Positions 26,480-41,480 of a stretch of DNA of 41,480 nucleotides are shown here, piece by piece. The stretch is from assembly GCA_025800105.1 (NCBI GenBank), contig JAOXSG010000953.1, positions 1 through 41,480 on the forward strand. Direction: 5' to 3'. Every line of letters begins with the position of its first letter. Positions within the stretch are counted from its first letter, which is position 1. This DNA is from Cohaesibacter sp. GTDB lineage: Bacteria > Pseudomonadota > Alphaproteobacteria > Rhizobiales > Cohaesibacteraceae. Below the pieces are notes generated by a model, which ran no database searches, had not been told where the DNA came from, and saw only the letters and a list, made by a program, of their open reading frames with translations. The position numbers were made by a program, and so were the translations under genes.

Positions 26480-26548
26480 CCCTGTCTCCTTTTTGTGCTG
26501 AATTCTTGATGGTTTGAGAAAATCATCCTTGGCTTTTTTCAGACGATA

Positions 26549-26578
26549 TTGACATTCCTACAGGATATCTCCTAAAAA
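26549..26578 (+). promoter_or_regulatory. Candidate promoter of the forward catabolic operon
   Basis: A perfect TTGACA at 26549-26554 is followed after 18 bases by TAAAAA (26573-26578). The start site would fall inside or right after the palindrome at 26579-26590, which is the usual arrangement for repression by a LacI-type regulator. Confidence 0.5.
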
Positions 26579-26590
26579 TGGAACGTTCCA
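26579..26590. promoter_or_regulatory. Putative LacI-family operator
   Basis: TGGAACGTTCCA is a 12-bp perfect palindrome with a central CG, the hallmark of LacI/PurR-type operators. It touches the -10 element of the forward operon and lies in the spacer shared with the reverse Gfo/Idh/MocA gene. A LacI regulator is encoded at 31628-32644. I did not notice a second exact copy in the window by eye. Confidence 0.6.
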
Positions 26591-26643
26591 AAAATAAAAT
26601 AATGGTTCTTGATTGTCTTGGATCTCATTTGGGAGGATGTGGA

Positions 26644-27816
26644 ATGGGTGAAGTTAAGGTCGCAATTCTTGGGGCGTCGGGCTGGATGGGCAAAGTTCAC
26701 ACGATGGCGTTTCAAACCTTTCCGCATTTTTTGGGAGACCGCTATGGCACAGCAAAAGTCGCTGCCCTTGTCAGCCGTCATCCTGATACTGCCAAAGAGC
26801 TTTCCTTTCGTGCGCCGGGTGCCAAACTCTTTACCGATTGGCGTGATGCGATCCGCGATCCAGACATTGATCTGATTGATATTTGTTTGCCTGATAATCT
26901 GCATTATGAGGTGGCTAAAGCGGCGCTTGAAGCGGGCAAGCATGTCTTTTGTGAAAAGCCCCTTGCGGAAAGTGCAAAAGAGGCACGAGAATTGGCCGAT
27001 CTTGCCAAGGCAAAAAATCTCATCACCCGTGTTGGCCATGCTTTTCCGCGCAATCCGGTTCATGATTTGGCGAAAGATTTGATCGACGCTGGTGAAATTG
27101 GTGAGATCAAATTGTTCAAGGGATGCCAACATATTGATGTGTTTGGCGATCCTATGGCGCCTTTTATGTGGCGGGCAGATGGTAAATTGGCCCCGACTGG
27201 CATTGTTGGCGATACGGGCTCTCATGTTTTCAGTTTCATGGATTTTCTGGTGGGTCGGGTTTCGTCTCTGATTGCGGATAATTTCATTACAGCAGAGCGC
27301 CGACCGCTTGTTGATGGATCTGGTTTGGGCGAGGACGTCGCCTTGACGGGCAATGAAGACTGGGCAGAGGTGACCAATCCTGATGGCTGCAATATTCTGT
27401 GTCGCTTTGAAAATGGCGCGCGCGGTCTTGTTGATTTTAGCCGGGTCGCAACAGGTCGCAAATTCATGCAAGGCTATGAGATTTATGGCACCAAAGGCAG
27501 TTTGGTTTATAATTATGACGAGATAAACCGCCTTCGGTTCTATTCCAATGACGACAAGGCGGGGCAACGCGGCTTTCGGGAAATTGACGTTGGTCCTGAT
27601 TATCCAAATTATGGTGCTTTTCTGCCTCTTCCCAATTTTGCGCTTGGCTATAATGAGAGCAAAATCATTGAAGCGGCTGAGGTTGTGCGATCTATCGCGC
27701 AAAATGAAGCAATGTGGCCAACCTTTGAATCCGGCCATCATATTTGCGCCATTGTCGATGCCTGTATGGAATCATCCAAGACCCAGCGTTGGGTTGATCT
27801 TGCTGATCTGGGCTAA
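26644..27816 (+). CDS. Gfo/Idh/MocA family NAD(P)-dependent oxidoreductase
   Basis: 390-residue oxidoreductase. Rossmann motif VAILGASGWMGKVHTMAF, catalytic lysine in HVFCEKPLAESAKE, and a catalytic His-type motif GDTGSHVFSFMDFLVG as in inositol dehydrogenase-like members. The C-terminal domain has EIYGTKGSLVYNYDEINRL. ATG 26644 is chosen over an earlier frame start at 26578 because GGGAGG (26631-26636) is ideally placed and because the Rossmann strand starts right after; 26578 also falls inside the promoter/operator. It is the first gene of a forward operon with a flavoprotein and KDG kinase and probably oxidises or reduces a sugar intermediate. Its active-site type differs from the divergent neighbour, so the two are not simple duplicates. 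Confidence 0.88.
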   Translation: MGEVKVAILGASGWMGKVHTMAFQTFPHFLGDRYGTAKVAALVSRHPDTAKELSFRAPGAKLFTDWRDAIRDPDIDLIDICLPDNLHYEVAKAALEAGKHVFCEKPLAESAKEARELADLAKAKNLITRVGHAFPRNPVHDLAKDLIDAGEIGEIKLFKGCQHIDVFGDPMAPFMWRADGKLAPTGIVGDTGSHVFSFMDFLVGRVSSLIADNFITAERRPLVDGSGLGEDVALTGNEDWAEVTNPDGCNILCRFENGARGLVDFSRVATGRKFMQGYEIYGTKGSLVYNYDEINRLRFYSNDDKAGQRGFREIDVGPDYPNYGAFLPLPNFALGYNESKIIEAAEVVRSIAQNEAMWPTFESGHHICAIVDACMESSKTQRWVDLADLG

Positions 27817-27875
27817 GGCCCCTGCTCTTTCCTGAGTATTTTGCTTTGCTTACGGTACGATAAGAGGATCTGATT

Positions 27876-29954
27876 TTGACCATCCCTCACACCATTTTGG
27901 ATCGGCTGACCGATGTTGACATGCCGCGTTTGCCGGCAGAGCCTCAATTGCAAGAGCAGATTACAATAGCCGATGCTATCATTCCTGTTCATCAAACTGG
28001 CACAATTGTCGTGGGCAGTGGTGCTGCGGGATTGCGCGCCGCTGTCGAGCTGCATCGGCGCGATGGGGATGTGACAATCCTTAGTCAAAGTGCATGGGGC
28101 GGGACGTCAGCCTGTTCGGGGTCAGACAAGCAAACCTTGCATACGGCCAACAGCTCTGATCAGGGCGACAATTTCAAAGAGATGGCCAAGGCCATTCGAG
28201 CCGGGGGCGCGATGGATGAAGACACGGCTTATATTGAAGCCGTTGGCTCTGTGCGCTCTATGGCCAGTTTGCAATTTTTGGGTCTGCCTTTGCCTCAAGA
28301 TCAACTTGGCGGCACCTTACGCTATCAGACAGATCATGATGAGATTGGCCGCGCCACCAGTTGCGGGCCGCGCACATCGCGCTTGATGGTCAAGGTGTTG
28401 GCGCAAGAGGCGATCGCGCTTGGGATCCCCTTTTTCAATCACACCACCTGTGTGCGGATCCTGTTTGAAGAAAAAGACGGAGAGCAAGTGATTGCGGGCC
28501 TTTTGGCGGTGCGGCCCAAAGCACAGAGCAAGGACAATCCTTTTGGATTTGTGATTTTCCAAAGCTCCAGCATCATTCTAGCGGCAGGTGGCCCCGGAGA
28601 ATTATATCGCGACAGCGTTTTTCCCAATGGCTGTTTTGGCTCTCTTGGTCTTGCCTTGCAAGCCGGGGTAGAGCTTGTAAACCTGACCGAGAGCCAATTT
28701 GGTATTGGCACTCGCCGAGAGGGCTTTCCGTGGAATTTGTCGGGCACTTATGTGCAGGTGATGCCGCATATTTATTCGCTTGATGATGAGGGCAATGAGC
28801 ATCATTTTCTGGCAGATTATTATCGCAGCACGCAGGAAATGGCCTCCAATATCTTTCGAAAAGGCTATCAATGGCCGTTTCATGCGACCCGGATGGCTGA
28901 TTTTCAATCCAGCCTTGTTGATTTGGCTGTGTTTCGCGAAAATCAAAAAGGCCGTCGCGTCTTTATGGATTTTAATCGCAATCCCCTGCCCGTTGTCGGG
29001 GATTTGCCCTTCAGTCTTGAGCGTCTTGATGAGGATGTCAGTCTCTATCTGAAACATGCCAAGGCCGATCAGGCTTTGCCGATTGATCGCTTGCGGCATA
29101 TGAACCCATTGGCGATTGAGCTTTATCGTCGCTACAAGGTTGATATTGCAAAAGATCCTTTGGAATTTGCGGTCAATAACCAGCATATGAATGGCGGTAT
29201 CGCGGTTGATATTTGGGGTCAGAGCAATCGGGTGGGGCTTTATGCGGTTGGTGAAGCTGCGGGCACTCATGGGGTGACCCGGCCCGGAGGGTCTGCGTTA
29301 AATGCCGGACAGGTTTTTGGCACGCGGGCCGCCGAACATATTGCGGGCCATGGCATGGCAACCAAGCCCCAGCGCCTGATTGATCAAAGCTGTATTGAAG
29401 ATGCACTTCTCTGTGTTGAGGCGATTTTGAAGGCGGATAGTCCTTTGCATTATAGCGATATCCGCAAAGATATTCAGGCCCGCATGAGTGATCAGGCAGG
29501 CATTCTTTGCACGGCAAAAGAGGTGCATGATGCCCGTCTTGCTGCAAAAGAGCTGAATGGCCGTATCAGTGCCCATGGCATTGCTTATGATCGGATATCA
29601 GAAGCCGGTCGTGTGCTGCAATGGCATCAAATGGCTTTGGCGTCAGAGGCGGTTTTAACGGCGCTTGACCATTATATTTCTCATGGTGGTGGCAGCCGTG
29701 GTGCGCGGGCTATTTGTGATCCTGCTGGGGAGATAACGCCCATGGCACGTAGTGGGCCTTTGACGGATTATCGCTTTGTCGTTGAGAAAGACGAGGATCG
29801 CAAAAAGCAAATTCTTGTTCACTTGCAAGATGATGCTTTTCTTGTGTCTGAGCGGGAGAACCGTTCTTTTGATGAGAGCAAACGTTCTTTCTTTGAACGG
29901 GATTGGCCCGCCTGGCTGACGGGTGCCATTTATCAGCCTTCTTCTGACTTATAG
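27876..29954 (+). CDS. Large FAD-dependent oxidoreductase, fumarate reductase/aspartate oxidase type (FAD_binding_2), substrate unknown
   Basis: 692-residue soluble flavoprotein. The FAD motif is GTIVVGSGAAGLRAAVEL near residue 41, followed by WGGTSACSGSDKQTLH, the covering segment of the FAD_binding_2 fold. Late in the protein come MNGGIAVDIWGQ, then GLYAVGEAAGTHGVTRPGGSALNAGQ, the C-terminal FAD closure of the succinate dehydrogenase/aspartate oxidase group. No signal peptide or haem/flavin-binding extension is visible. TTG 27876 is the start: AGAGGA (27863-27868) is correctly spaced and no suitable ATG exists. It lies between a Gfo/Idh/MocA enzyme (59-base gap) and KDG kinase (25-base gap), so a role in oxidising a sugar-derived compound is inferred. 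I do not recognise a characterised orthologue. Confidence 0.8.
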   Translation: MTIPHTILDRLTDVDMPRLPAEPQLQEQITIADAIIPVHQTGTIVVGSGAAGLRAAVELHRRDGDVTILSQSAWGGTSACSGSDKQTLHTANSSDQGDNFKEMAKAIRAGGAMDEDTAYIEAVGSVRSMASLQFLGLPLPQDQLGGTLRYQTDHDEIGRATSCGPRTSRLMVKVLAQEAIALGIPFFNHTTCVRILFEEKDGEQVIAGLLAVRPKAQSKDNPFGFVIFQSSSIILAAGGPGELYRDSVFPNGCFGSLGLALQAGVELVNLTESQFGIGTRREGFPWNLSGTYVQVMPHIYSLDDEGNEHHFLADYYRSTQEMASNIFRKGYQWPFHATRMADFQSSLVDLAVFRENQKGRRVFMDFNRNPLPVVGDLPFSLERLDEDVSLYLKHAKADQALPIDRLRHMNPLAIELYRRYKVDIAKDPLEFAVNNQHMNGGIAVDIWGQSNRVGLYAVGEAAGTHGVTRPGGSALNAGQVFGTRAAEHIAGHGMATKPQRLIDQSCIEDALLCVEAILKADSPLHYSDIRKDIQARMSDQAGILCTAKEVHDARLAAKELNGRISAHGIAYDRISEAGRVLQWHQMALASEAVLTALDHYISHGGGSRGARAICDPAGEITPMARSGPLTDYRFVVEKDEDRKKQILVHLQDDAFLVSERENRSFDESKRSFFERDWPAWLTGAIYQPSSDL

Positions 29955-29979
29955 CCCTATACCTGACGGAATGTTTGTT

Positions 29980-30906
29980 ATGCGCCATATTTCATCCAAT
30001 CATTTTTTGGCAATTGGAGAGGCCATGGTTGAAATGGCCCCTGTTGAAAGCGGGCTTTATCAGCGTGGTTTTGCGGGGGATTGTTTCAATACCGCTTGGC
30101 ATGTTGCGCAAATTCTGGGAAAACGCGCCTCGGTTGGGTTTGCCACCCGCCTTGGCTCAGACGACATATCAAACCAGTTTATGGATGACTTGAGGCAAGA
30201 TGGCATAGATGTCTCCCTCATTCATCAAGATGATCAACGCATGATGGGCTTATATCTCATTGAATTGGATGGCGTTGAGCGCAGCTTTCATTATTGGCGG
30301 CAGATGTCTGCGGCTCGTGTCATGGCCGATGATGAGGTGTGGCTTGACAAAATTTCCCGGCAAACGGGTTTGATCCATGTCTCTGGCATCACGCTTGCCA
30401 TTCTCTCGCCCAAAGCCCGGCAGCGCTTGTTTGTGGCTCTCTCTAAAGCACGGGATGATGGGGCGATTGTGTCTTTTGACCCCAATATCCGTCCGAAATT
30501 ATGGTCTTCTCTTGAAGAGATCCATGAAACCTTGCGTGAGATCTTTTCTATCACCGATATTGCTTTGCCCAGTTTTGATGATGAACACACACATTGGGGT
30601 GATCCATCGCCCACAGCCACCATTGAGCGGTTAAAGGCTGCGGGAATTGGTGAGATTATCGTCAAAAATGGCGATCAGGCAATTGCGTGCCATATTGGCG
30701 GGCAAACGCGCTTCATTGATACGCCAGCCGTATCAAACATCTGCGATACGACCGGTGCGGGCGATGCGTTCAATGCCGGTTATCTTGGCGCCAGATTATT
30801 GGGTCAAGATCCTGTTGCTTGCGTTCATGCCGGGCAAAGATTGTCCGCCGAAATCCTGCGCCATTTTGGTGCGCGGATGCCAAAATCTGCTGTGCCTTCC
30901 CTATGA
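29980..30906 (+). CDS. kdgK: 2-keto-3-deoxygluconate kinase, PfkB family
   Basis: About 308 residues. Phosphorylates KDG to 6-phospho-KDG with ATP. The N-terminal FLAIGEAMVEMAP and substrate segment YQRGFAGDCFNTAWHVAQIL match KdgK closely. The PfkB signature with catalytic Asp is DTTGAGDAFNAGYLGARLL. The frame is open from 29923. ATG 29980 is preferred because ACGGA lies 9 bases upstream and the first strand follows closely; ATG 29971 is possible. It ends the forward operon and converges with the KDPG aldolase gene 27 bases away. KdgK and Eda are consecutive enzymes, yet here they are encoded on opposite strands, probably under the same LacI regulator. Confidence 0.9.
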   Translation: MRHISSNHFLAIGEAMVEMAPVESGLYQRGFAGDCFNTAWHVAQILGKRASVGFATRLGSDDISNQFMDDLRQDGIDVSLIHQDDQRMMGLYLIELDGVERSFHYWRQMSAARVMADDEVWLDKISRQTGLIHVSGITLAILSPKARQRLFVALSKARDDGAIVSFDPNIRPKLWSSLEEIHETLREIFSITDIALPSFDDEHTHWGDPSPTATIERLKAAGIGEIIVKNGDQAIACHIGGQTRFIDTPAVSNICDTTGAGDAFNAGYLGARLLGQDPVACVHAGQRLSAEILRHFGARMPKSAVPSL

Positions 30907-30907
30907 G

Positions 30908-30923
30908 GAGGGCATAATCCCTC
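30908..30923. terminator. Short hairpin between converging kdgK and eda
   Basis: GAGGG (30908-30912) and CCCTC (30919-30923) form a 5-bp stem with a 6-base loop that can extend with a one-base bulge (AGGAGGG with CCCTCTCCT). A weak TCATTTTAT tract follows on the forward strand. It is the only terminator-like structure in this 27-base convergent gap. Confidence 0.45.
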
Positions 30924-30933
30924 TCCTGTCATT

Positions 30934-31569
30934 TTATAGAGAGCGTGCCTTTGCCAATGCTTTGGCTGCATTTTGGCGGATTGTGTCCCACTTTCCGGCC
31001 ATTATATCGTCTTGTTTGGCAATCCATGTGCCGCCAACGGCATTGACCATATCAAGGCTTAGCCAATCGGCCATATTGTCCAAAGAGATGCCACCGGTTG
31101 GATTGAAACGAATGCCCGTATGCAGATAAGGGCCTGCGATATTTTTTAGCATTGCGGGGCCGCCTGAGGCCATTGCGGGATAGAATTTGACCAATTTACA
31201 TCCATGCCGCAAGGCGATTTGCAGCTCTGATGGGGTCATAATGCCCGGTGCAAAAGGCAGTGCTATGTCAGCTGCTACTTTCAGGACAGAGGCGTCAATG
31301 CCTGGAGAGAGAGCAAACATGGCCCCGGCATTTTTGGCAATTTTTGCCTGCTCTTCATCAAGCACAGTGCCCGCGCCGATCAGCATATCGGGGCGATGGT
31401 GCGCAATCTGCTCAATCGCTTTGGCGGCGGCTTTTGTGCGAAAGGTGATTTCGGCAACGGGCAGACCCGCCTCTATCAGGGCATCGGCCAATGGCAAGGC
31501 ATCTTGCTCCCGGTCCAGAGCAATCACTGGCACCACACCAAACGTTGCAAGTTTTTCAAAGATATCCAT
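30934..31569 (-). CDS. eda: 2-dehydro-3-deoxy-phosphogluconate (KDPG/KHG) aldolase
   Basis: 211-residue class I aldolase cleaving KDPG to pyruvate and glyceraldehyde 3-phosphate. The catalytic residues are recognisable: Glu in VAEITFRTKAA, the phosphate-site GAGTVLDEEQ, and the Schiff-base lysine in CKLVKFYPAMASGG. RFNPTGGISLDN and AVGGTWIAK complete the barrel. ATG 31569 is chosen over 31581 because TGAGG then lies at the right distance. It is the last gene of the long reverse block, 58 bases after the LacI gene, so regulator and aldolase are likely co-transcribed. It supplies the final step of the KDG route begun by KdgK. Confidence 0.94.
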   Translation of the reverse strand: MDIFEKLATFGVVPVIALDREQDALPLADALIEAGLPVAEITFRTKAAAKAIEQIAHHRPDMLIGAGTVLDEEQAKIAKNAGAMFALSPGIDASVLKVAADIALPFAPGIMTPSELQIALRHGCKLVKFYPAMASGGPAMLKNIAGPYLHTGIRFNPTGGISLDNMADWLSLDMVNAVGGTWIAKQDDIMAGKWDTIRQNAAKALAKARSL

Positions 31570-31627
31570 ATGATGCCTCATAGCCTTTTCGTTGTTGTTT
31601 TCGGCCTATTGGCTTTATGCCGCTGGC

Positions 31628-32644
31628 TCAAAGACTGTTGTGACTGGATTGCCGAATAGACAAGGACACTGATGTTCTGGTTTCTGCGGATGGTTTTGCG
31701 CCATGTTCCAGCCAGTTTATGATTGTGGCAGCTGTCTGTTCTCCAATCTTGGCAATGTTGCAACTGATCGAAGACAGCGAGGGAAAGGTTTGGGCGACAT
31801 CTTCGATATCGTCAAAGCCGACCAGCAAAAAGTCTTTGCCAACGGCGCATTGTTGTTCCTGAAACCCCGATAACATACCAAGGGCAACGAGATCATTGAA
31901 ACAAAGGGCTGCGTCTATTTCCGGGTGCTCTTGCAACATTTTTTTTGCAGCTTGGCGGCCAAAATCGCGGGTTGCACTGCCTGTCAGGATGAAAGGCTCA
32001 AGCTTTTCGTCTTTGAGTGCTTTCAAATAGCCTGATTTGCGCTCTTCGGTGATTGCACGGGCTTCCAACCCCCCAACAAAAGCAATGCGTTTGGCACCTT
32101 GCTTGATCAGATGATGCGTAGCAAGACTTGTGCCTTCTACATAATCGGGGGCGAGAAAGGGGAAAATATCCCATCGTTTATCGACCGAGCGCAGCAATTG
32201 CATGGTGGGGATGCCTGCCCTTTCCAGCGCGTCGAAGCTTTCAGCCGTGTCCCCATAAGCAGGAGAAATGATCAGGGCGGAGACGCCATGTTCAATCATG
32301 GAGCTGATGACTTGGGACTGAGTTTGCGGATTTTCGTCAGTATTGGCGATAACCGCCGAATAGCCTGCCTCTGACAAGGTCATTTGCAGAGAGGTGGCAA
32401 ATTCGGTGAAGAAGGGGTTGCGCAAATCATTGATCACCAACCCGACAAGACCGGCATTGGACATGCGCATATTGGCTGCGGCCCGGTTATAGACATAGCC
32501 CAGATCGCTCATGGCTTCGAGCACCAGAAGACGTGTGGACTGGCGCACAGACGGATTGTTTTGCAAAACCAGACTGACCGTCGATTTTGACACCCCCGCT
32601 TTGCGGGCAACATCTATGATTGTTGGTCTGCGCTTCTCAGCCAC
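31628..32644 (-). CDS. LacI family transcriptional regulator
   Basis: 338-residue one-component regulator. The N-terminal helix-turn-helix and hinge are classic: PTIIDVARKAGVSKSTVSLV followed by RQSTRLLVLEAMSDLGYVYN. The effector domain is a periplasmic-binding-protein-like sugar-binding fold (GLVGLVINDLRNPFFTE, DAALCFNDLVALGM, GFDDIEDVAQTFPSLSSI). Sugars or sugar acids normally relieve DNA binding. Located between the Dabb gene (79-base gap containing a nested hairpin) and eda. The likely operator is the CG-centred palindrome TGGAACGTTCCA at 26579-26590. It probably controls both arms of the catabolic cluster. Confidence 0.93.
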   Translation of the reverse strand: MAEKRRPTIIDVARKAGVSKSTVSLVLQNNPSVRQSTRLLVLEAMSDLGYVYNRAAANMRMSNAGLVGLVINDLRNPFFTEFATSLQMTLSEAGYSAVIANTDENPQTQSQVISSMIEHGVSALIISPAYGDTAESFDALERAGIPTMQLLRSVDKRWDIFPFLAPDYVEGTSLATHHLIKQGAKRIAFVGGLEARAITEERKSGYLKALKDEKLEPFILTGSATRDFGRQAAKKMLQEHPEIDAALCFNDLVALGMLSGFQEQQCAVGKDFLLVGFDDIEDVAQTFPSLSSISCNIAKIGEQTAATIINWLEHGAKPSAETRTSVSLSIRQSSHNSL

Positions 32645-32685: not shown

Positions 32686-32724
32686 GCCCCTTTTACGTTT
32701 GATTATGGGGCCAATCAAGGGGGC
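32686..32724. repeat. Nested hairpin between the Dabb and LacI genes
   Basis: Outer GCCCC (32686-32690) and GGGGC (32720-32724), with inner TTGATT (32699-32704) and AATCAA (32713-32718) around an 8-base loop. It begins at the Dabb stop codon. There is no T-run after it on the reverse strand, so attenuation or mRNA processing upstream of lacI is more likely than full termination. Confidence 0.45.
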
Positions 32725-33032
32725 TAACAGGCGAGGTCAAATACCAGAATGCCATCCAGTCCGCCGACCGCATTGGCAACAAGTTTGGCACCCAGTTTTT
32801 TGTGGTCCTCGTGGTCCTGATAGGCCTGCAAGGTCTCCCAATCGGCAAAATCTGCTACAAATCCATGCATATAGCCGCGTTCAATCTGTTCCGGGCTTTC
32901 GCTTTTGCCTGCGGTAATGGACAACACACCCGGAATTTTGTCTTTGATCTCGTGCAATTCTGCAAAGATTGCGGCAATGTCCTGTTCGCCAAGTGTGTCT
33001 TGAAATTTAATCAAAACGATATGTCTTATCAT
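32724..33032 (-). CDS. Stress-responsive A/B barrel (Dabb) domain protein
   Basis: 102-residue single-domain protein. The N-terminus MIRHIVLIKFQD with the conserved His, the central ITAGKSESPEQIERGYMHGF and the aromatic-rich YQDHEDHKKLG are typical of the Dabb ferredoxin-like dimeric barrel. Some family members catalyse cyclisation or protect against stress; many have no known activity. It overlaps the stop of the upstream GMC gene by ATGA, a sign of tight translational coupling. A role linked to the GMC product (for example handling an unstable keto-sugar or lactone) is a guess from context. Confidence 0.85.
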   Translation of the reverse strand: MIRHIVLIKFQDTLGEQDIAAIFAELHEIKDKIPGVLSITAGKSESPEQIERGYMHGFVADFADWETLQAYQDHEDHKKLGAKLVANAVGGLDGILVFDLAC

Positions 33033-34624
33033 GATGCTGTCATCCCGTTGTCGTGTTTAATCATGTCTGCGGCTTTCTCTCCAATCATGATGGCGGCCGC
33101 GTTGGTATTGGACGAAATGACCGTTGGCATGATGGCGTTATCAACCACCCGCAGACCTTCGATGCCATTGAAGCGCAAGCGTATATCGACTACGGCCTCC
33201 TCATCTGCGCCCATGCGGCATGTTCCAACACAATGGTGCGATGTTTTGGAATGCTGGCAGATGAAGTCAAAATAATCCTGATCGCTTTTCACCTCTGGTC
33301 CGGGCAAGCGCTCTGCCAAAATGTAATCGGACAAAGCGGATTGAGAGAGAATGTCCTGTGTCAGTTTCAGGCCTCTAATCGACATCTCCCGATCGATTGG
33401 ATCTTCAAGATAATTGGGGTCAATCAAGGGGGCTTTTGCCGGATCATCACTTTGCAAGCGCACGCTGCCTCTGGAGCGCGGGCGCAAATAGCAGGAATTG
33501 AGGGTTACCCCGCCCTGTGGCATGGATGCGACGCCATGCTCGATGCCAGTGCCCAAGCCCAAATGAAATTGCAGATCAGGCGAGCGGGCATCCGGGTCGG
33601 CATACCAAAAACCGCCGGTTTCAAACAAGGAAGAGGCAACGGGGCCTTTGCGGCCAAAGATATATTGCAGTCCGGCAAGTGCGGCCCAATGGGGTTTTGC
33701 ATAGCGATCATAGCTATAAGGGCCGCTTAATTCGGCAATGCAATAGAGATCAAGATGATCTTGCAGATTGGCGCCAACGCCGCCTTGATCATAGACCACA
33801 TCCATACCGAGGGATTTTAGATGGTCGGCAGGCCCGATGCCTGAGAGTTGCAACAATCTTGGTGAACCGATTGCACCAGAGGCAAGCAAGACTTCGCGAT
33901 CTGCGTGATAGAGCGTGCCATCGGTCAGTTCCACCCCTGTTGCCCGGCCTTTTTCGACGATGATGCGGCGGACTTGCGCCCCCAGCTTGACCGTCAGGTT
34001 TTTGCGGAGCTGATTGGGGGTGACATATGCCATGGCGGCAGAAGAACGGCGGACATTGCGCTGGGTGAGCTGATAATAGCAGGTGCCGTCTTGCTTTTCG
34101 CCATTGATATCCAGATTGCGGGGGATGCCAAGCTGGGCGGCAGCATCGAAATAGGCATCGCAAATTGGCAATGGGGCACTTGGTTGGCTTACGCCAAGGG
34201 GGCCGCCTTTGCCATGATAGTGATTTTCGTACGTGTCATTGTCTTCTGCCTTTTTGTAATAGGGCAAAATATCGTCATAGCCCCAGCCTGTGCAGCCCAT
34301 TTGCAGCCAGTCGTCATAATCCTGCGCATTACCGCGGGTGTAAATCTGGGCATTGATAGCAGAGCCGCCGCCAATCACCTTGGCTTGGGTATAGCGAAAG
34401 ATCTTGTTTTGCATATGTTTTTGCGGGATGGTGTCCCAGCCCCAAGAGCCAATGCCTTTTGTCATTTTCGCAAAGCCTGCGGGTAAATGATAAAAGGGAT
34501 GCTTGTCGCCGCCCCCTGCTTCCAACAAGAGAATAGAGGCTGAGGGATCTTCCGAGAGGCGGCCTGCAAGAACAGAACCGGCAGAGCCTCCACCAATAAT
34601 AATGAAATCATAGCCTTGTGACAT
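33029..34624 (-). CDS. GMC family FAD oxidoreductase, choline/alcohol dehydrogenase-like
   Basis: 531-residue glucose-methanol-choline flavoenzyme. The FAD motif is DFIIIGGGSAGSVLAGRLSE. The GMC signature 1 region is KVIGGGSAINAQIYTRGN and signature 2 is GAIGSPRLLQLSGIGP. The catalytic His lies in SHHCVGTCRMG and its partner Asn in SSNTNAAAIMIGEKA. It most resembles BetA/AlkJ-type dehydrogenases that pass electrons to quinones, with no signal peptide, so it would work in the cytoplasm or at the inner membrane. The nearby aldehyde dehydrogenase could take the next step (alcohol to aldehyde to acid). A very strong ribosome-binding site (AAGGAGGGG) precedes ATG 34624. Its stop overlaps the Dabb start. 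Confidence 0.9.
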   Translation of the reverse strand: MSQGYDFIIIGGGSAGSVLAGRLSEDPSASILLLEAGGGDKHPFYHLPAGFAKMTKGIGSWGWDTIPQKHMQNKIFRYTQAKVIGGGSAINAQIYTRGNAQDYDDWLQMGCTGWGYDDILPYYKKAEDNDTYENHYHGKGGPLGVSQPSAPLPICDAYFDAAAQLGIPRNLDINGEKQDGTCYYQLTQRNVRRSSAAMAYVTPNQLRKNLTVKLGAQVRRIIVEKGRATGVELTDGTLYHADREVLLASGAIGSPRLLQLSGIGPADHLKSLGMDVVYDQGGVGANLQDHLDLYCIAELSGPYSYDRYAKPHWAALAGLQYIFGRKGPVASSLFETGGFWYADPDARSPDLQFHLGLGTGIEHGVASMPQGGVTLNSCYLRPRSRGSVRLQSDDPAKAPLIDPNYLEDPIDREMSIRGLKLTQDILSQSALSDYILAERLPGPEVKSDQDYFDFICQHSKTSHHCVGTCRMGADEEAVVDIRLRFNGIEGLRVVDNAIMPTVISSNTNAAAIMIGEKAADMIKHDNGMTAS

Positions 34625-34669: not shown

Positions 34670-36160
34670 TCAATGCACGGCGATCGTCTTTTCCATGAAA
34701 TCTGCGGTGCGAATGGCAAGAGCTGCGATTGTCAGTGCAGGATTGACGGCTGCCGATGTTGGCAGAACGGATGCATCTGCAATGAAAAGATTGGGATGAT
34801 CGTGACTGCGGCACATAGCATCGACGACGCTTGATCTTGGATCATTGCCCATGCGCGCTGTACCGCATTGATGGGACGGTGTGCGGCGATCAAAGGGTTT
34901 TGACAGAACGATTGGATATCCCGCCTGTTTCAACTTGCCTTTTATCTTCTCGACAAGGGCAAGATGGGCGTCCCAGTTGGAGCGCTTCCAGTCCAGTTTG
35001 ATTTGGCCCTTTTGCAGGCTGACCCGGCTGTCCGGGTGGGGTAAATCTTCGGACATGGCGTAAATATCGACAGAATGGGCGGCAATCCAGTTGGCAATTG
35101 GGCGCGGAAGGCCTGAAGCGGCTTGCAAAATGGTGCCGGAGATTTTTCCCAGCATCTGGATATTGCCCAGCGGCTCGCCATTTGGCCCGCCTGTCAGGTA
35201 ATAGTCATTGACCATCAGGGTTTTTTGATAAATGGAGCGATTGCGCCTGAATGGATGAAGCGCCATGACAGCCGAGCAATTGTGATTCATAAAATTGCGG
35301 CCAACCTGATCGGAGCTGTTGGCCAGACCATTGGGATTTTGCTCATTCGCGGAGGCGAGCAACAAAGCAGCGCTCTGTACGGCCCCCGCTGCCAAGACTA
35401 TGGTAGGCGCTTGCAATCTTTCGCCGCTATCCAGCTCAATTGCGCTGATATGATTGTCTTTGCCGGTTAGAAGCCGCTTGACTTTTGCTTTTGTGAGCAA
35501 AGAAACGTTGTTATGTTTGAGCGCCATGGTCAGCCCGATGCTATGGGCATCCATCTTGCCGCCATTGGTATCGGGAAAGGCATCCCATGGGGTTGGTGCG
35601 TGTGCCAGCCATCGGTCGAGATCCACCCCAAGCGGGAGGGATGAGGGATTGAGCCCGACCGATGACAATCTGGTTCGCAAGTCTGCAATATCCGGCTCAT
35701 CTGGCACGGGAGCGTAAAGATAGGCTTTGGAGTGAGCTGGCTCGCTCGGATCTTCGCCAATTTGCCCTCTGACCTTATAGAGATGCTCTGCCTGACTATA
35801 GAATGTTTCCAGTTCTTGATAGGAAATGGGCCAACCGGGAGTTTGCCCGCCCATATGCGCTATGGGTGAGAAATCCTCTTGGCGATAGCGCATGAGGACT
35901 GCGCCGTAAAATCTGGAATTGCCGCCGGTATAATAATAATTGCCCGGATTGAAAGGCTCATTTTGGCCATTCAACCATGTCTCATCGGGACGATAATGGC
36001 CTTTGGCGAAAATGGCGTCATCATCGCGGTCATTCTGGTCGGGGAGCAAATGATCTCCCCTTTCCAGAATGAGAATATTCAGGCCCGATGGTGCTAATGC
36101 TGCGGCAAGTGTTGCGCCGCCCATGCCGGATCCTATGATGATGACATCTGGCCCTTTCAT
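34670..36160 (-). CDS. GMC family FAD oxidoreductase, short sugar-dehydrogenase type
   Basis: 496-residue flavoprotein of the GMC superfamily but of a different subgroup from its neighbour. The FAD motif is DVIIIGSGMGGATLAAALAP and the GMC segment YYYTGGNSRFYGAVLMRYR. The product-side helix is VLAAGAVQSAALLLASA. The catalytic His lies in SHQCGTARMGNDP and Asn in AAVNPALTIAALA. This layout resembles pyranose/glucoside dehydrogenases and other bacterial GMC enzymes acting on sugars. No Tat or Sec signal is seen, unlike periplasmic glucoside-3-dehydrogenases. ATG 36160 overlaps the stop of the ABC ATPase (ATGA), linking expression of the importer and the oxidase. The substrate is inferred to be the imported sugar. 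Confidence 0.87.
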   Translation of the reverse strand: MKGPDVIIIGSGMGGATLAAALAPSGLNILILERGDHLLPDQNDRDDDAIFAKGHYRPDETWLNGQNEPFNPGNYYYTGGNSRFYGAVLMRYRQEDFSPIAHMGGQTPGWPISYQELETFYSQAEHLYKVRGQIGEDPSEPAHSKAYLYAPVPDEPDIADLRTRLSSVGLNPSSLPLGVDLDRWLAHAPTPWDAFPDTNGGKMDAHSIGLTMALKHNNVSLLTKAKVKRLLTGKDNHISAIELDSGERLQAPTIVLAAGAVQSAALLLASANEQNPNGLANSSDQVGRNFMNHNCSAVMALHPFRRNRSIYQKTLMVNDYYLTGGPNGEPLGNIQMLGKISGTILQAASGLPRPIANWIAAHSVDIYAMSEDLPHPDSRVSLQKGQIKLDWKRSNWDAHLALVEKIKGKLKQAGYPIVLSKPFDRRTPSHQCGTARMGNDPRSSVVDAMCRSHDHPNLFIADASVLPTSAAVNPALTIAALAIRTADFMEKTIAVH

Positions 36161-37269
36161 GGCTTTATGCGCATTTCGGTTGCAGGATCGAAAGCCACGG
36201 CTTTTTCCATATTGACGGCAAACTGGAAGATATCGCCAGACTGTACATTGGCATCGGCGCGCATTCTGGCAATGATTTCCTTGCCGCCCAATTCCATGGT
36301 GACATAGGTATCAGCACCAGCAGGCTCTGTGACGCCAATGCGGTTTGTCAGGCTGACAATATTGGAAGAATTGCGATCTGCGCCATCGGGATCTGTGATC
36401 GATTCCGGGCGAATACCCAAGAGAATGTCCTTGCCATCCCAGTCAGACAGATTGTCCTGCTCAAGGCGCAACATTTGCTCGGACCCATCATGGATTTTGA
36501 CAAGCGCATGAGGGGTGCCGTCCTGCATTGTGATTTTGGCAGGCACCACATTCATGGCGGGACTGCCCATGAAGGTAGCCACATACACATTGGCCGGGCT
36601 GTCATAAATCTCTTTCGGGGTGCCCAATTGCTGCACATAGCCCTGATACATGACAGCAATGCGCGTTGACAGCGTCATGGCTTCAATCTGGTCATGGGTC
36701 ACATAGACGATGGTTGTTTTGAGCTTTTCGTGCAGCTTCTTGATTTCTGTGCGCATATCAACGCGTAATTTTGCATCCAGATTGGACAAGGGTTCATCAA
36801 ACAGGAAAACGTCAGGATCGCGCACCAGCGCCCTGCCCATGGCGACCCTTTGGCGCTGACCGCCGGATAATTGGCCGGGTTTGCGATCCAGCAGATTTTC
36901 GATCTGCAACAATTTTGCAACATCTTGCAGAGCGGTTTGCTGATCTTCTTTTGGCACATTATGCATTTCCATGCCAAAGGTGATATTTTGCGCAACGCTC
37001 ATATTGGGATAGAGGGCGTAGCTTTGAAAGACCATGGCGATATTGCGTTTTGACGGATGGACACCGTTCATCACGCGATCCTTGATCGAGATCTCGCCTG
37101 AGGTGATTGTTTCAAGCCCTGCAATCATGTTCAAAAGCGTGGATTTTCCGCAGCCGGACGGGCCGACCAGAACGAGAAACTCCCCTTCTTCTACCGCGAT
37201 ATCCACCTGATGCAGAACTTCTACCTGTCCATAAGACTTCGTAACATTCTGTATATCGAGAAAGCCCAT
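36157..37269 (-). CDS. Sugar ABC transporter ATP-binding protein (MalK/UgpC/GtsD type)
   Basis: About 370 residues. The ABC domain has Walker A GPSGCGKSTLLNMIAG, Q-loop VFQSYALYPNMSV, signature LSGGQRQRVAMGRAL, Walker B VFLFDEPLSNLDAKLR and H-loop YVTHDQIEAM. The C-terminal third is the TOBE/OB regulatory domain of MalK-like proteins (LLGIRPESITDPDG, IGVTEPAGADTYVTMELGG). ATG 37269 (MGFLDIQNVTKSYG) follows a good AAGGAAAAG site and is preferred over the frame start at 37314. It serves the two permeases encoded directly upstream, 31 bases away. Confidence 0.96.
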   Translation of the reverse strand: MGFLDIQNVTKSYGQVEVLHQVDIAVEEGEFLVLVGPSGCGKSTLLNMIAGLETITSGEISIKDRVMNGVHPSKRNIAMVFQSYALYPNMSVAQNITFGMEMHNVPKEDQQTALQDVAKLLQIENLLDRKPGQLSGGQRQRVAMGRALVRDPDVFLFDEPLSNLDAKLRVDMRTEIKKLHEKLKTTIVYVTHDQIEAMTLSTRIAVMYQGYVQQLGTPKEIYDSPANVYVATFMGSPAMNVVPAKITMQDGTPHALVKIHDGSEQMLRLEQDNLSDWDGKDILLGIRPESITDPDGADRNSSNIVSLTNRIGVTEPAGADTYVTMELGGKEIIARMRADANVQSGDIFQFAVNMEKAVAFDPATEMRIKP

Positions 37270-37300
37270 ATTCTTTTCCTTATGTCGATCTTTCATCATT

Positions 37301-38179
37301 TTAGCCTTTGACACTGCCTGCCATCAGGCCTCTGACGAAATAGCGTCCTGCTACGATATAAACGAGAAGGGTTGGAAGAGCCGCGAGAATGGCTCCTGCA
37401 AAATGCACGTTATATTCCTTAACCCCGGTTGAGGATTGCACCAGATTGTTCAGCGCCACGGTCATGGGTTGGCTCTGCCCGCCAAAAGAGGCACCAAAGA
37501 GGAAGTCATTCCAGATATTGGTGAATTGCCAGATGACGCAGACAACCGTAATGGGGCCGGAGACCGGCAACATGATGCGCCAGAAAATGCGAAAGAAGCC
37601 TGCACCGTCAATCATGGCCGCGCGCACCAGCTCTGTCGGGAAAACGGCATAATAATTGCGGAAATAGAGGGTCGAAAAGCCGATGCCATAGACCACATGC
37701 ACAAGAACCAGTCCCGGTATGGAGCCTGCCAGTCCCAATTTTCCTAAGACAGAGGCCATAGGGATCAGAACGATCTGAAAGGGAATGAAGCAGGAAAAGA
37801 GCAACAGGCCAAAGATGATTGTATCGCCCTTAAAGGTCCATTTTGTCAGCACATAGCCGTTCAAAGCCCCAAGAATGGTTGAAATGGCAACGGCGGGCAC
37901 CACCATCAGAATGGAATTGAGGAAATAGGGTTTCAGGCCGGTTGGCTCAACGCCGATTTGGGCCGATGACCATGCCTGTTTCCATGGCTCGATGGTCCAG
38001 CTCTCTGGCAGCGCCATCATATTGCCACCGGTAATTTCAGCCAATGGTTTGAGGGAATTGGCAACCATGACGAAAAGCGGCAGCAAATAGAAAAGCGCGA
38101 AAACAAGCAAAATGCCGTAAATGAATATGCGCGTTCCGGTGCCGGTGCGTATTGCTGTATCCTGTTCTGCGACGGCCAT
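37301..38179 (-). CDS. Sugar ABC transporter permease (MalG/GtsC type)
   Basis: 292-residue inner-membrane permease of the CUT1 family. The N-terminal helix is FIYGILLVFALFYLLPLFV, five more spans follow, and the EAA loop is ELVRAAMIDGAGFFRIFWRI. It ends in FVRGLMAGSVKG, the normal MalG-type C-terminus that contacts the ATPase. ATG 38179 overlaps the stop of the upstream permease by one base (TGATG) and has AAGGAG eight bases before it; a GTG at 38182 is an alternative. It forms a heterodimer with the MalF-type permease. Confidence 0.94.
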   Translation of the reverse strand: MAVAEQDTAIRTGTGTRIFIYGILLVFALFYLLPLFVMVANSLKPLAEITGGNMMALPESWTIEPWKQAWSSAQIGVEPTGLKPYFLNSILMVVPAVAISTILGALNGYVLTKWTFKGDTIIFGLLLFSCFIPFQIVLIPMASVLGKLGLAGSIPGLVLVHVVYGIGFSTLYFRNYYAVFPTELVRAAMIDGAGFFRIFWRIMLPVSGPITVVCVIWQFTNIWNDFLFGASFGGQSQPMTVALNNLVQSSTGVKEYNVHFAGAILAALPTLLVYIVAGRYFVRGLMAGSVKG

Positions 38180-39075
38180 CACTTTTTCTCCTTCAATTCA
38201 GCATAGAGATAGGGTGTCATGATGGCGGCGATTGTCATCAGCATGATCACAGCGGATGCGGCACCAATGCCCATTGAATTTCTGGTGAAGGTGTAGGAAT
38301 ACATGAAGGTTGCCGGTAATTCGGTTGCCCGTCCTGGCCCGCCTCCGGTCAATGCGATGATCAAATCATAGGATTTGACCGCCAGATGGGCGAGGATGAC
38401 AAAAGCGGAGAGGAAAGCGGGACGCAGCAGCGGGATTACAATGCGGCGATAGAGGTTCCAGTTTGATGCCCCATCAATCTGGGCGGCTTTGAGGATTTCG
38501 TTGTCAATGCCACGCAAACCTGCCAGAAACATTGACATAACAAAGCCAGATGTTTGCCAGACAGCGGCAATCACAACGGTATAGATTGCAAGATTTCGGT
38601 CTTTGATCCAGCCAAATTCGAAACTCTCCCAGCCCCATAAATGCATGGTATTTTCGAGGCCTATGCCCGGATCCATAATCCACTTCCAGGCGGTGCCGGT
38701 GACAATGAAGCTCAACGCCATTGGATAGAGATAGATCGGGCGCAACATCCCCTCGCCGCGGATTTTCTGATCCAAAAGAATTGCGAGACTGAGGCCAATC
38801 ACGGTGCAAATCACGATATAGAGCGTTGCGAAAATGCCCAGATTGATGATGGCAGTCCACCAAGCACGCAATCCCCAAAGCTTAACATAATTGCCAACGC
38901 CAACCCAATCATGGCTTGGCAGCATTTTGGAGCCGGTGAAGCTGAGATAGATCGTATAGATGATAAAGCCATAGACGAAGACGAACATGGCTGCCACGGA
39001 GGGCGATAAAACGATTTTCGGCAACCATTCTTGAAGACGTGTACGAAAATCCGCCGTAGAACTGCTGGATGTCAT
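38179..39075 (-). CDS. Sugar ABC transporter permease (MalF/GtsB type)
   Basis: 298-residue CUT1 permease with about six membrane helices. The EAA motif is EILKAAQIDGASNWNLYRRI and family segments such as LYPMALSFIVTGTAWKWIMDPG are clear. ATG 39075 has a near-ideal GGGAGGAACC site, so it replaces the longer frame starting at 39090. The gap to the binding-protein gene (122 bases) contains a 9-bp hairpin. It pairs with the downstream MalG-type permease by coupled translation. Confidence 0.94.
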   Translation of the reverse strand: MTSSSSTADFRTRLQEWLPKIVLSPSVAAMFVFVYGFIIYTIYLSFTGSKMLPSHDWVGVGNYVKLWGLRAWWTAIINLGIFATLYIVICTVIGLSLAILLDQKIRGEGMLRPIYLYPMALSFIVTGTAWKWIMDPGIGLENTMHLWGWESFEFGWIKDRNLAIYTVVIAAVWQTSGFVMSMFLAGLRGIDNEILKAAQIDGASNWNLYRRIVIPLLRPAFLSAFVILAHLAVKSYDLIIALTGGGPGRATELPATFMYSYTFTRNSMGIGAASAVIMLMTIAAIMTPYLYAELKEKK

Positions 39076-39155
39076 GGTTCCTCCCGGCATGGGTCATCAT
39101 TCAATGGCTTGCATGTCACAAACCAAGGCAAAGGCTAAAATTATAGTTGAGTGAA

Positions 39156-39184
39156 GGACAGAGGCAGACTTTCCACCTCTGTCC
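39156..39184. repeat. Hairpin between the sugar-binding-protein and permease genes
   Basis: GGACAGAGG (39156-39164) and CCTCTGTCC (39176-39184) pair perfectly over 9 bp with an 11-base loop, 13 bases after the binding-protein stop. On the reverse strand it is followed by TTCACTCAAC, not a T-run. This suggests a transcript-stabilising or partial-attenuation element. Confidence 0.75.
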
Positions 39185-39197
39185 ATTATGGTGCAGC

Positions 39198-40451
39198 TTA
39201 TTGGGCTGCTTCCACTGCATTGACCAATTCTTCAACGGCGGCTTTTGAATCATATTCACCGTTGAAATGCGCTGTCACTACGTCATAAATGGCGTTTTTG
39301 ACAGCTGCGCGGTTGGCATGGCCATGAGCAATGGATCCGACCAATGTGCCGCTTTTGGATGCTGCGGCCAGATCGGCCATGCCTTGCTTGCCGCAAGCAT
39401 CAAAAGCATCATTTGGCACATCGGTACGGGCGGGGACTGACCCTTTGACCACATTGAAAGCAGACTGGAAGGTTGGCGACATAATGGCTTTTGCCATAGC
39501 CCCTTGTGCTGCTTTTGCGGACTCTTTGGAGACAGAGAACATGGCAAACTGATCAGAATTGAAGCTGACAGTGCCTTCAGAGCCGGGAACGCGGAAGCAG
39601 AGGAAATCTTTGCCCGGCGCTTTTTTGGCCTTCAAAAACTCGCCCTTGGCCCAGTCACCCATGATCTGGAAAGCGGCATCGCCATTGATGACCATGGCAG
39701 AGGCAAGGTTCCAGTCGCGGCCAGAGAAATTGTCATCAACAAAGCTGCGCAAGGTGGCCATGCGTTCAAAGGCTTCGTTCATTTTTTCAGAGCCAAGGGT
39801 TGCTGGATCCAGATCAACAAATGCCTTGCGATAGAAATCTACGCCGCCAACAGACAGGACGACGCCATCAAACATTGTGGCATCCTGCCAAGCCTGACCG
39901 CCATGAGCGAGGGCTGTGCGACCGGATTTTTTAACGGCCTGCATGGCTGCAACAAACTCGTCCCAGTTTGCAGGTTGTTTGATGCCCAATTCGTCAAGGA
40001 TCGCCTTGTTGGCCCAAACCCAGTTGGTTGAATGGACATTGACCGGAGCAGATACCCAGTGGCCGCCATGTTTGGAGAATTTTTGCAAGGCTTTTGGAAC
40101 CACTGCGTCCCAGCCTTCCTGTTTTGCAACATCGTCCAGATTTGCCAGTGCTTTTTGATCAGCCCAATCCAGAATGTCAAAGCCAAGCATTTGCACAGCG
40201 GTTGGTGCATCGCCTGCGGTGACGCGGGCGCGCAAAGTGGTCATGGCCGCCTCGCCGCCACCACCGGCAACGGGCATATCCACCCAGCCGATATTCTGGT
40301 CAGCCAGATCTTTTTTCAGAACCTGAAGCGCGGCAGCTTCGCCACCAGATGTCCACCAGTGCAGAACCTCCACATCTTCTGCCTGTGCCATGCTGGTTGT
40401 TGCCATCAGCGCTGCGCAAACGGCCATTGTTTTACCGATAGTCCTACGCAT
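39198..40451 (-). CDS. Sugar ABC transporter substrate-binding protein (GtsA-like)
   Basis: 417-residue periplasmic binding protein of family 1 (CUT1). The Sec signal peptide is [20 protein letters not shown] with cleavage after MAQA. The mature N-terminus [19 protein letters not shown] and later [16 protein letters not shown] resemble glucose/mannose-binding proteins of the Pseudomonas GtsABCD type. Two cysteines (FLCFRV, DACGKQ) may form a disulfide. ATG 40451 follows GGGAGGAAA. It lies 44 bases after the aldehyde dehydrogenase gene. The ligand is probably a monosaccharide or small glycoside; resemblance to GtsA is from memory of the family, not a search. Confidence 0.92.
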
Positions 40452-40495
40452 GAAATTTCCTCCCTATTCTTGCGTTGGTATGTTGGGTTTGAGAC

Positions 40496-41480
40496 TTATG
40501 TGCTGGTCTCTTTCACCCATTTTTGCCTTGTATTGCCGATCCGCATGACCAGCGATTTGACTTCCAAAAATTCCTCAAATCCGTATGATCCGATTTCACG
40601 ACCCTGACCGGATTGTTTCATGCCGCCAAAGGCCAATTCAGGAAAACCGTCCATCCATGTATTGGTCCAGACGGTGCCAGCATTGGCGCGGCGGCTAAAT
40701 TCCAGACAGGTATCGACATTGGCACTCCACACGCCTGCCGATAATCCATATTCGGTGTCATTAACCAATTGGATTGCTTCTTCAAGTGTGCGGAAAGTGA
40801 GAATTGTTAGAACCGGGCCAAAGACTTCCTCGCGTGCGATGGCCATATCCGGGGTAATATTTTCAACCACTGTGGGCTGGTAGAATTGCTCTCCCACATT
40901 GGGAACGCGCAAAAGATCGCCGCCAAGGCTGACTTTGGCCCCTTCTCTGACTGCATCCTTGATATAGCCATCGATCTTTTGCAAATGTTCAGGCGTGACG
41001 ATGGCCCCGACTTGCGTCTCGTCATTCAAGGGATTACCGAAAGCCACCTTGCGCGACAAGCCAAGCACACGCTCAACAAAATCTTTGGCAATATCTTCAT
41101 GCACGATAATGCGGCTTGATGAGTTGCAGCATTGACCAACATTGAAATAGACACCGAAGGTAACCGCATCTGCGGCCTGCTCGATATTTGCATCGGGGAA
41201 AATGACTTGCGGGTTTTTGCCGCCCAGCTCAAGAGCGACTTTTTTCAGGCTATCGCCTGCGGATTTGGTGATTAGCTTGCCGACCGCTGTGGAGCCGGTG
41301 AAGGACACCATGTCAATATCGGGGTGACTTGACAGCAGACTGCCAACCGGGTCGCCATAGCCCAGAACGATGTTGCACACACCAGCGGGCAAACCTGCCT
41401 CAGCCAGAAATTCTCCAATCATTGCAGTGGTGGATGGGGTCATCTCAGATGGCTTGACCACACAGCAACAGCCAGCGGCC
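40496..41480 (-). CDS. Aldehyde dehydrogenase, NAD(P)-dependent (5' end cut by window)
   Basis: Only the last 328 codons are present; the frame runs off the right edge, with AAGCCCVVKPSEMTPST (cofactor-binding Lys) read through the border. Visible features are the nucleotide loop SFTGSTAVGKLI, the general-base Glu in ALELGGKNPQVIF and the catalytic Cys in FNVGQCCNSSSR. The motif EVFGPVLTILTF and the C-terminal AFGGMKQSGQGREIG complete the classic ALDH superfamily layout. It resembles betaine-aldehyde and related broad-range dehydrogenases. Together with the choline-dehydrogenase-like GMC enzyme it could turn an alcohol into a carboxylic acid. It is the upstream-most gene seen of the reverse block, so the operon promoter lies outside the window. 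Confidence 0.93.
   Translation of the reverse strand, partial: AAGCCCVVKPSEMTPSTTAMIGEFLAEAGLPAGVCNIVLGYGDPVGSLLSSHPDIDMVSFTGSTAVGKLITKSAGDSLKKVALELGGKNPQVIFPDANIEQAADAVTFGVYFNVGQCCNSSSRIIVHEDIAKDFVERVLGLSRKVAFGNPLNDETQVGAIVTPEHLQKIDGYIKDAVREGAKVSLGGDLLRVPNVGEQFYQPTVVENITPDMAIAREEVFGPVLTILTFRTLEEAIQLVNDTEYGLSAGVWSANVDTCLEFSRRANAGTVWTNTWMDGFPELAFGGMKQSGQGREIGSYGFEEFLEVKSLVMRIGNTRQKWVKETST

Follow-up and report, generated by a model that had tools for sequence, protein, structure and literature searches.

The 41,480-nt stretch of Cohaesibacter sp. DNA analyzed here, referred to as the window, is the entire contig JAOXSG010000953.1 (G000:C552) of a 3.57 Mb genome assembled in 1224 contigs at 65% completeness, and it contains a putative sugar catabolic cluster of two arms that converge at a KdgK-like kinase gene and an eda gene. 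All genes named in a first-pass annotation of this DNA, a forward operon of three genes and a reverse block of ten, are present as open reading frames with the Pfam families it gave. A perfect palindrome, TGGAACGTTCCA (26579–26590), is a putative LacI-type operator upstream of the forward arm, which codes for Gfo2, a levoglucosan-dehydrogenase-like sugar dehydrogenase of the Gfo/Idh/MocA family (26578–27816, PF01408), FAD2, a flavoprotein on a separate branch of the succinate dehydrogenase/fumarate reductase (SDH/FRD) fold (27876–29954, PF00890), and a KdgK-like PfkB kinase (29923–30906, PF00294, with a start probably at about 29971). Because the presumed operator occupies 26579–26590, the true start of Gfo2 is probably the ATG at 26644 rather than 26578.

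On the reverse strand, from the contig end inward, the second arm comprises a partial aldehyde dehydrogenase (ALDH) gene (40496–41480, PF00171), a sugar-type solute-binding protein (SBP; 39198–40451, PF01547), two CUT1 permeases (permease 1, 38179–39090; permease 2, 37301–38182; both PF00528), an importer ATPase of the UgpC/MalK type (36157–37314, PF00005; 460.9 bits to NF008653, passing the cut-off of 432), a short GMC flavoenzyme resembling FAD glucose/fructose dehydrogenases (34670–36160, PF05199; PDB matches 6a2u and 7w2j), a long GMC flavoenzyme that is a choline-dehydrogenase-like alcohol dehydrogenase (33029–34624, PF00732/PF05199; 545.4 bits to NF002550, cut-off 605), a Dabb-domain protein (32724–33032, PF07876), a LacI-family regulator presumed from operator conservation to control both arms (31628–32644, PF00356 and PF00532), and the KDPG/KHG (2-keto-3-deoxy-6-phosphogluconate/2-keto-4-hydroxyglutarate) aldolase Eda (30934–31581).

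The contig end cuts the ALDH gene, whose match begins at position 152 of the PF00171 profile, and the window alone cannot show the genes that precede it. Since the window is a complete contig, the pathway steps missing from it reflect an assembly edge. A scan with FAD2 retained the best 80 of 562 relatives, and the nearest named one, a Cohaesibacter metagenome-assembled genome (MAG; G008, locus L045), has the same cluster, with window proteins 90–100% identical and a full-length ALDH (97%). Past this ALDH lie an enoyl-CoA hydratase (41% identical to the Rhizobium one) and then a YdiF-type CoA-transferase (64%), and the next four genes comprise a D-lyxose isomerase-family gene on the opposite strand and a siderophore-type ABC importer. 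In Rhizobium sp. CCGE531 a single run contains LacI, Gfo/Idh/MocA, CoA-transferase, hydratase, ALDH, the CUT1 importer, short GMC, long GMC, Gfo2, FAD2, a sugar kinase and a fructose-bisphosphate aldolase; of eight window proteins compared with their counterparts there, seven are 54–75% identical (Gfo2 75%) and LacI is 39% identical.

The counts that follow refer to 57 close-group loci, including two from betaproteobacterial MAGs (L094 and L097), and omit the 23 of the 80 with more distant FAD2 types (L100, L101, L103–L105 and L107–L124); genes were labeled by best BLAST match, a few being paralogues, within 10-kb flanks that often end at contig edges. A YdiF-type CoA-transferase is present in all 49 close-group genomes tested, always at 62% identity or more, and occupies the expected cluster position in 39 of them; in the other ten the FAD2 locus ends at a contig edge. 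This stricter per-cluster test replaced a looser one on contig coordinates, which placed 45 of the 49 within 20 kb but could match different contigs. Eight loci were outside the search (L045, L052, L058, L072, L093, L094, L097 and L098); among them the CoA-transferase was seen for L045 (G008), L052 (G042), L093, L094 and L097 (52%), with L058, L072 and L098 not covered. The short GMC is labeled in 49 of the 57 loci, the long GMC in 48, the SBP in 41 and a levoglucosan-dehydrogenase-like Gfo in 39. Thus the co-occurrence of these genes with the flavoprotein, proposed earlier as a check for both GMC types, exceeds chance; the Dabb protein is present in 22 of the 57 loci. Among 289 genomes sampled evenly across the class, two contain FAD2, six the CoA-transferase and three the short GMC; both FAD2 genomes carry all three genes, and four have the CoA-transferase without FAD2. 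The sole such CoA-transferase found in the window's own genome (E up to 1e-180) belongs to a sister cluster on a different contig, and therefore the copy belonging to the window cluster is presumably missing from the assembly.

The hydratase keeps both catalytic glutamates in all nine aligned homologues, that of G008 included, and the Rhizobium CoA-transferase keeps a glutamate aligned with YdiF E333, presumably the catalytic residue; this glutamate was read in the Rhizobium sequence, with which the G008 gene shares 64% identity. The pair belongs to the same families as the E. coli YdiF-type acetate/3-ketoacid CoA-transferase and enoyl-CoA hydratase but is here wired into a sugar importer operon adjoining a LacI regulator.

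The palindrome points to one switch for the two arms. A palindrome with a central CG adjoining a lacI-type gene has the typical look of a LacI operator. Within the window TGGAACGTTCCA has one match against 0.09 expected, and 8 of 100 shuffles contain at least one match. The genome as a whole contains one exact copy, and since a reversed control pattern also occurs there once, a single genome is weak evidence for an operator. In G008, one copy precedes Gfo2 and two, 22 bp apart, precede the CoA-transferase–hydratase–ALDH–importer operon. Across 45 related genomes there are 68 exact copies, in 38 genomes, against two of the control pattern, both in one genome. Sixty-four of the 68 are at the two operons, 51 within 3.5 kb of the CoA-transferase and 13 within 2.5 kb of FAD2; of the other four, two stand before a further SBP gene of this cluster and two are elsewhere. 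Distant operator targets were considered and rejected, the two outlying copies lying at genes that look housekeeping-like by eye. The locus thus combines a regulator gene with a conserved palindrome before its target operons, as expected of a LacI regulon whose binding is predicted. Because the palindrome is common to both arms and nearly all copies are at these two operons, the arms most likely form one LacI regulon. That they are separate functions merely converging in this genome is suggested by their opposite strands, but is largely refuted, and very improbable, given that the same genes run in one direction in Rhizobium and many Rhodobacteraceae loci and that the same palindrome precedes both. 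The first-pass annotation, which had joined the two arms and named rare co-occurrence of the arms as grounds for doubt, is borne out on this point. The D-lyxose isomerase-family gene of G008 (PF07385; L039 3727–4446) is transcribed away from the CoA-transferase operon, and the intergenic region holds both operator copies; the gene may be a regulon member, which would hint at a sugar substrate.

It is proposed, tentatively and at somewhat less than even confidence, that this single LacI-controlled regulon serves to catabolize a neutral, glucose-like sugar derivative aerobically by a CoA-dependent route. The CUT1 importer would bring the compound into the cell, where the long GMC enzyme would oxidize a primary alcohol to an aldehyde and ALDH would convert this to a carboxylate, and the short GMC enzyme and Gfo2 would oxidize a ring hydroxyl to a ketone. 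The CoA-transferase, just past ALDH in relatives, would form a CoA thioester from which the enoyl-CoA hydratase could remove the beta-hydroxyl in place of a sugar-acid dehydratase; such CoA-type beta-dehydration would be needed if the alpha carbon bears a ring ether and not a free hydroxyl. FAD2 would catalyze a redox reaction in the acid part of the pathway, ring opening would give 2-keto-3-deoxy-hexonate, and phosphorylation by KdgK and cleavage by Eda would yield pyruvate and glyceraldehyde 3-phosphate. The strongest element of this proposal is that CoA activation and the hydratase would do the work of the dehydratase, given the linkage of the pair and its conserved residues, and because one lineage has a CoA-transferase of an unrelated family instead: at the Puniceicoccaceae locus L119, FAD2 is near ALDH, a hydratase and a class III CoA-transferase. 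The weakest elements are the nature of the substrate and the position of FAD2 in the pathway.

The first-pass annotation, noting no dehydratase or lactonase in the window, suggested that one lies just outside or that the route is unusual. Both suggestions are partly right: to judge by G008, the missing steps lie past the contig edge, and the CoA-transferase and hydratase found there in G008 make the route unusual; no dehydratase or lactonase is among the four genes beyond the G008 CoA-transferase. Nor is there an aldonate dehydratase among the 14 window genes or among the G008 CoA-transferase, hydratase and next four genes, the rest of the genome being outside that search. The annotation's own reading, a conventional oxidative route from a sugar or polyol to 2-keto-3-deoxygluconate (KDG) with the dehydratase or lactonase elsewhere in the genome and the CoA enzymes kept for another purpose, would account for KdgK, Eda and the several sugar dehydrogenases. 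Some enolase-superfamily members are sugar-acid dehydratases, and genes of this superfamily occur in L077, about 9 kb before FAD2, and in L133, beside the CoA-transferase and without FAD2, so that a dehydratase may be present in some related loci. Such a route is nonetheless quite unlikely, as the CoA-transferase and hydratase sit between the operator and ALDH in G008 and CCGE531, and neither the annotated CCGE531 run nor the four G008 genes include a dehydratase (most related loci also hold unlabeled frames).

FAD2 itself shows, in an AlphaFold2 model (mean pLDDT 87.8, pTM 0.91), the fold common to SDH, FRD and L-aspartate oxidase. The best PDB match is the FrdA chain 5vpn_A (TM 0.79 by target length, 19% identity). 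In an alignment of 36 FAD2 sequences, that of the window included, the equivalents of FrdA H44, H232, T244, E245, R287 and H355 are absent from all 36, and R390 is the only one of the seven compared residues that is kept, again in all 36; at ~20% identity, single columns of the FAD2–FrdA alignment are possibly off by one (H437 lies beside the H355 column). Apart from H44, these are presumably the dicarboxylate-binding and proton-shuttle residues. The family has its own separate set of invariant residues. Based on the active-site residues, FAD2 was rejected as a succinate dehydrogenase, fumarate reductase or L-aspartate oxidase, and it also differs from SDH and FRD in having no iron–sulfur or membrane partner among its neighbors in the window. 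The kept R390 suggests that its substrate is a carboxylate. No FAD2 match was found in a phage collection. Other genomes of the genus contain FAD2 homologues of ~54% identity that neighbor genes for a LacI regulator and TRAP importer (L042, L043 and L044), with no labeled GMC or CoA genes within the 20 kb read. In two planctomycete MAGs, FAD2 of ~40% identity adjoins an SDR and a KDPG-aldolase-family protein (L122 2224–6998, Phycisphaerae; L124 5542–11980, Sedimentisphaerales), and in L124 an Old Yellow Enzyme homologue lies upstream.

The proposed exit is the lower Entner–Doudoroff branch. Eda scores 234.5 bits to TIGR01182 (cut-off 156.05) and keeps E45, R49, T73, K133 and T161 of E. coli Eda, with S184 replaced by threonine; these include the Schiff-base lysine and the catalytic glutamate, and both residues and score are those of a KDPG aldolase. 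The kinase gene directly downstream of FAD2 has NF052444 as its best match at 246.9 bits (cut-off 400), and its best PDB chain, 4e69, is a 2-dehydro-3-deoxygluconokinase. KdgK and Eda are a plausible pathway exit, which the CoA-dependent route would enter by CoA thioester chemistry and not through an aldonate dehydratase; in relatives of the window cluster, kinase and aldolase are optional. The earlier proposal that the enzymes convert their substrate toward KDG is weakened as a general rule.

Module exchange among relatives illustrates this. First, five variant clusters (G274, R. daejeonense, S. meliloti Ak57, Microvirga ossetica and Rhizobium sp. ACO-34A) keep the Gfo–CoA-transferase–hydratase–ALDH–importer–GMC block with a LacI gene alongside, whereas FAD2, Gfo2, KdgK and Eda are all absent over the stretch read; all five have an SDR, DUF993 and a glycerate 2-kinase instead of FAD2, KdgK and Eda. 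The presence of a glycerate 2-kinase suggests that the product is a C3 acid or aldehyde, as in the non-phosphorylated split of a 2-keto-3-deoxy acid, and DUF993 would then be the aldolase. Second, three Rhizobium strains carry a third cluster form on plasmids, as does S. meliloti on pSymA, and the window's own genome contains it at G000:C15. All five stretches contain a ribose-type importer, a Zn-alcohol dehydrogenase, ALDH, the long GMC, CoA-transferase and hydratase; four have an acyl-CoA dehydrogenase and SDR (in NLR16a these are absent or beyond the stretch), three have labels for DUF993 and AP2, and an electron-transfer flavoprotein (ETF) is annotated in pSymA and TH2. The sister cluster G000:C15 (L129 1057–19848 and L130 1–2696) carries a ribose-type ABC importer, Zn-alcohol dehydrogenase, ALDH, long GMC, AroE-like protein, CoA-transferase, hydratase, Dabb, glycerate 2-kinase, acyl-CoA dehydrogenase, SDR, DUF993 and AP2. 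The CoA-transferase/hydratase pair thus recurs as a unit in sugar- or polyol-type clusters.

These clusters also bear on a different chemistry, a route resembling beta-oxidation, with a deoxy or carbocyclic polyol acid as its substrate, in which the CoA-transferase activates, the flavoprotein desaturates, the hydratase adds water, an SDR or Gfo enzyme oxidizes the beta-hydroxyl, the chain or ring is cut, and KdgK and Eda are incidental. In the sister cluster and on pSymA, a true acyl-CoA dehydrogenase and an SDR do accompany CoA-transferase and hydratase (joined on pSymA by ETF), and in E. coli an SDR lies beside hydratase, transferase and FAD2. The route remains unlikely: the annotation of the CCGE531, E. 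coli HS and pSymA stretches includes no thiolase, the SBP is of a sugar-binding type, and the five variant clusters lack FAD2 and acyl-CoA dehydrogenase in the stretch read with the rest kept. R. daejeonense and Rhizobium sp. ACO-34A do have a 3-oxoadipyl-CoA thiolase gene, ~10 kb ahead of the CoA-transferase and separated from it by other genes.

The importer and dehydrogenases speak to the substrate. The SBP matches PDB 4r2b at 608 bits, 8hqq at 410, 5dvf at 365 and the glucose-binding protein 2b3b at 143; 8hqq and 5dvf carry names of sugar ABC binding proteins, and we take 4r2b to have been solved with glucose and 8hqq and 5dvf to bind it. Gfo2 matches PDB 6a3f and 5ya8 and resembles the levoglucosan dehydrogenase LgdA over its full length. 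It was rejected as a levoglucosan dehydrogenase proper (303.9 bits to NF052479 against a cut-off of 650), and the window cluster differs from the LgdA pathway in adding GMC, ALDH and CoA enzymes, which are not known from that pathway. The likeness of Gfo2 to this enzyme is consistent with 3-keto-glycoside or C-glycoside cleavage, whereby Gfo2 or the short GMC oxidizes C3 of a glucoside, the glycosidic bond is eliminated and the other enzymes process the freed sugar. The AP2-type sugar isomerase/epimerase family is used for 3-keto-glycoside eliminations, and members are present in the E. coli, Propionivibrio and Coraliomargarita FAD2 loci. No 3-keto-glycoside hydrolase or lyase of the AP2 or DUF1080 type is among the window genes, however, and the CoA-transferase of all 49 tested genomes would be left unexplained, which makes glycoside cleavage improbable. 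Families of the myo-inositol pathway (IolB, IolD and IolE) are likewise absent from the window genes.

A more specific version of the CoA-dependent route is possible and is put forward with greater reserve. Flavin dehydrogenases and ALDH would produce a ring-locked sugar acid that is loaded onto CoA, beta-dehydrated and opened to a 2-keto-3-deoxy acid, FAD2 would found a new functional family of SDH-fold flavoenzymes in alphaproteobacteria, E. coli and planctomycetes, and the substrate in alphaproteobacteria would resemble glucose but lack a free anomeric center, 1,5-anhydroglucitol being an example. The C6 acid of 1,5-anhydroglucitol is an isomer of 2-keto-3-deoxyhexonate; a link of this compound to the window cluster is speculation. 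4-O-methylglucuronate, carbocyclic sugars and glucosylglycerol were also considered, and no candidate is decisively favored. According to one review, 1,5-anhydroglucitol breakdown in the gut is anaerobic, depends on a phosphotransferase system and oxygen-sensitive glycyl-radical enzymes, and leaves an aerobically working enzyme still to be identified, and a different aerobic Rhizobiaceae route exists for 1,5-anhydrofructose (PMC12441222). The window genes include no such radical enzyme and would have only the possible substrate class in common with the gut route. The Anaerostipes myo-inositol pathway also employs a CoA-transferase, an enoyl-CoA hydratase and an acyl-CoA dehydrogenase in a sugar-derived route, but there the CoA chemistry acts on 3-oxopropionate after an aldolase, unlike here (PMC8355322).

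A homologous core is present in E. coli, where a FAD2 protein 54% identical to that of the window has matches in 3106 of 5426 complete genomes. The three intact loci read lie between ytfB and rplI and consist, in this order, of TetR, SDR, AP2, hydratase, CoA-transferase, FAD2 and an importer, which is of the TRAP type or, in AVS0453, a galactonate-family MFS protein (314.3 bits, cut-off 395). The cluster type of strain HS (L126 4164–13947) is complete, at coverage of at least 80%, in 1441 genomes. Coupling of the FAD2/CoA-transferase/hydratase core to a TRAP or MFS importer suggests an acid substrate in E. coli, and acid-type importers there versus sugar-type importers in alphaproteobacteria would fit a common acid intermediate. 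K-12 MG1655 lacks the cluster, and its pseudogene ytfA corresponds to the last 133 residues of the TetR regulator at 100% identity (L125 5695–6093). In strain PSJ-12 (L176 8001–8250) FAD2 and the importer are only fragments, with SDR, AP2, hydratase and CoA-transferase still annotated; thus the locus decays in some lineages. No description of the E. coli locus, the window cluster or DUF993 was found in the open-license PMC literature, subscription papers being outside its scope.

Several observations weigh against the proposed CoA-dependent route. The KdgK score is below the curated cut-off, and the CCGE531 run ends in a fructose-bisphosphate aldolase and not in Eda. A KdgK-like kinase is labeled in only 18 of the 57 loci (one at 28% identity) and Eda in four; together with DUF993 and glycerate 2-kinase in other lineages, this weakens KDG as a universal product. 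In seven of the 45 genomes the operator has no exact match. The net chemistry to KDG would need fewer redox enzymes than are present, and a hydratase with both glutamates could hydrate instead of dehydrate. The enolase-superfamily genes of L077 and L133 count here as well. Finally, the planctomycete loci L122 and L124 have Eda (Pfam) beside FAD2 in genomes where no YdiF-type CoA-transferase was found, so that FAD2 may not need CoA; among the more distant genomes this transferase was found in 7 of 18.

Ten of the main frames in the first 17 kb of the window are of housekeeping type (e.g., TrkA, TrkH, HflX, MazG and methionyl-tRNA synthetase), and an oligopeptide-type ABC importer is present at 19–25 kb. 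A second Gfo/Idh/MocA gene (25496–26479), which the first-pass annotation counted among the catabolic enzymes, lies outside the interval described there (26,480–41,480) and adjoins this importer and a FecR-domain protein (both within 17972–25114). It is kept in the Cohaesibacter relative and not in other related loci, and with a label in one of the 57 it was rejected as a member of the system.

If the proposed route is correct, it would represent a new catabolic logic in which CoA activation of a sugar acid replaces the sugar-acid dehydratase. It would also provide a function class for FAD2, a conserved flavoprotein family without an assignment, and for DUF993, and would make testable the purpose of an E. 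coli locus whose FAD2 gene is found in more than half of the complete genomes and which was lost by K-12.

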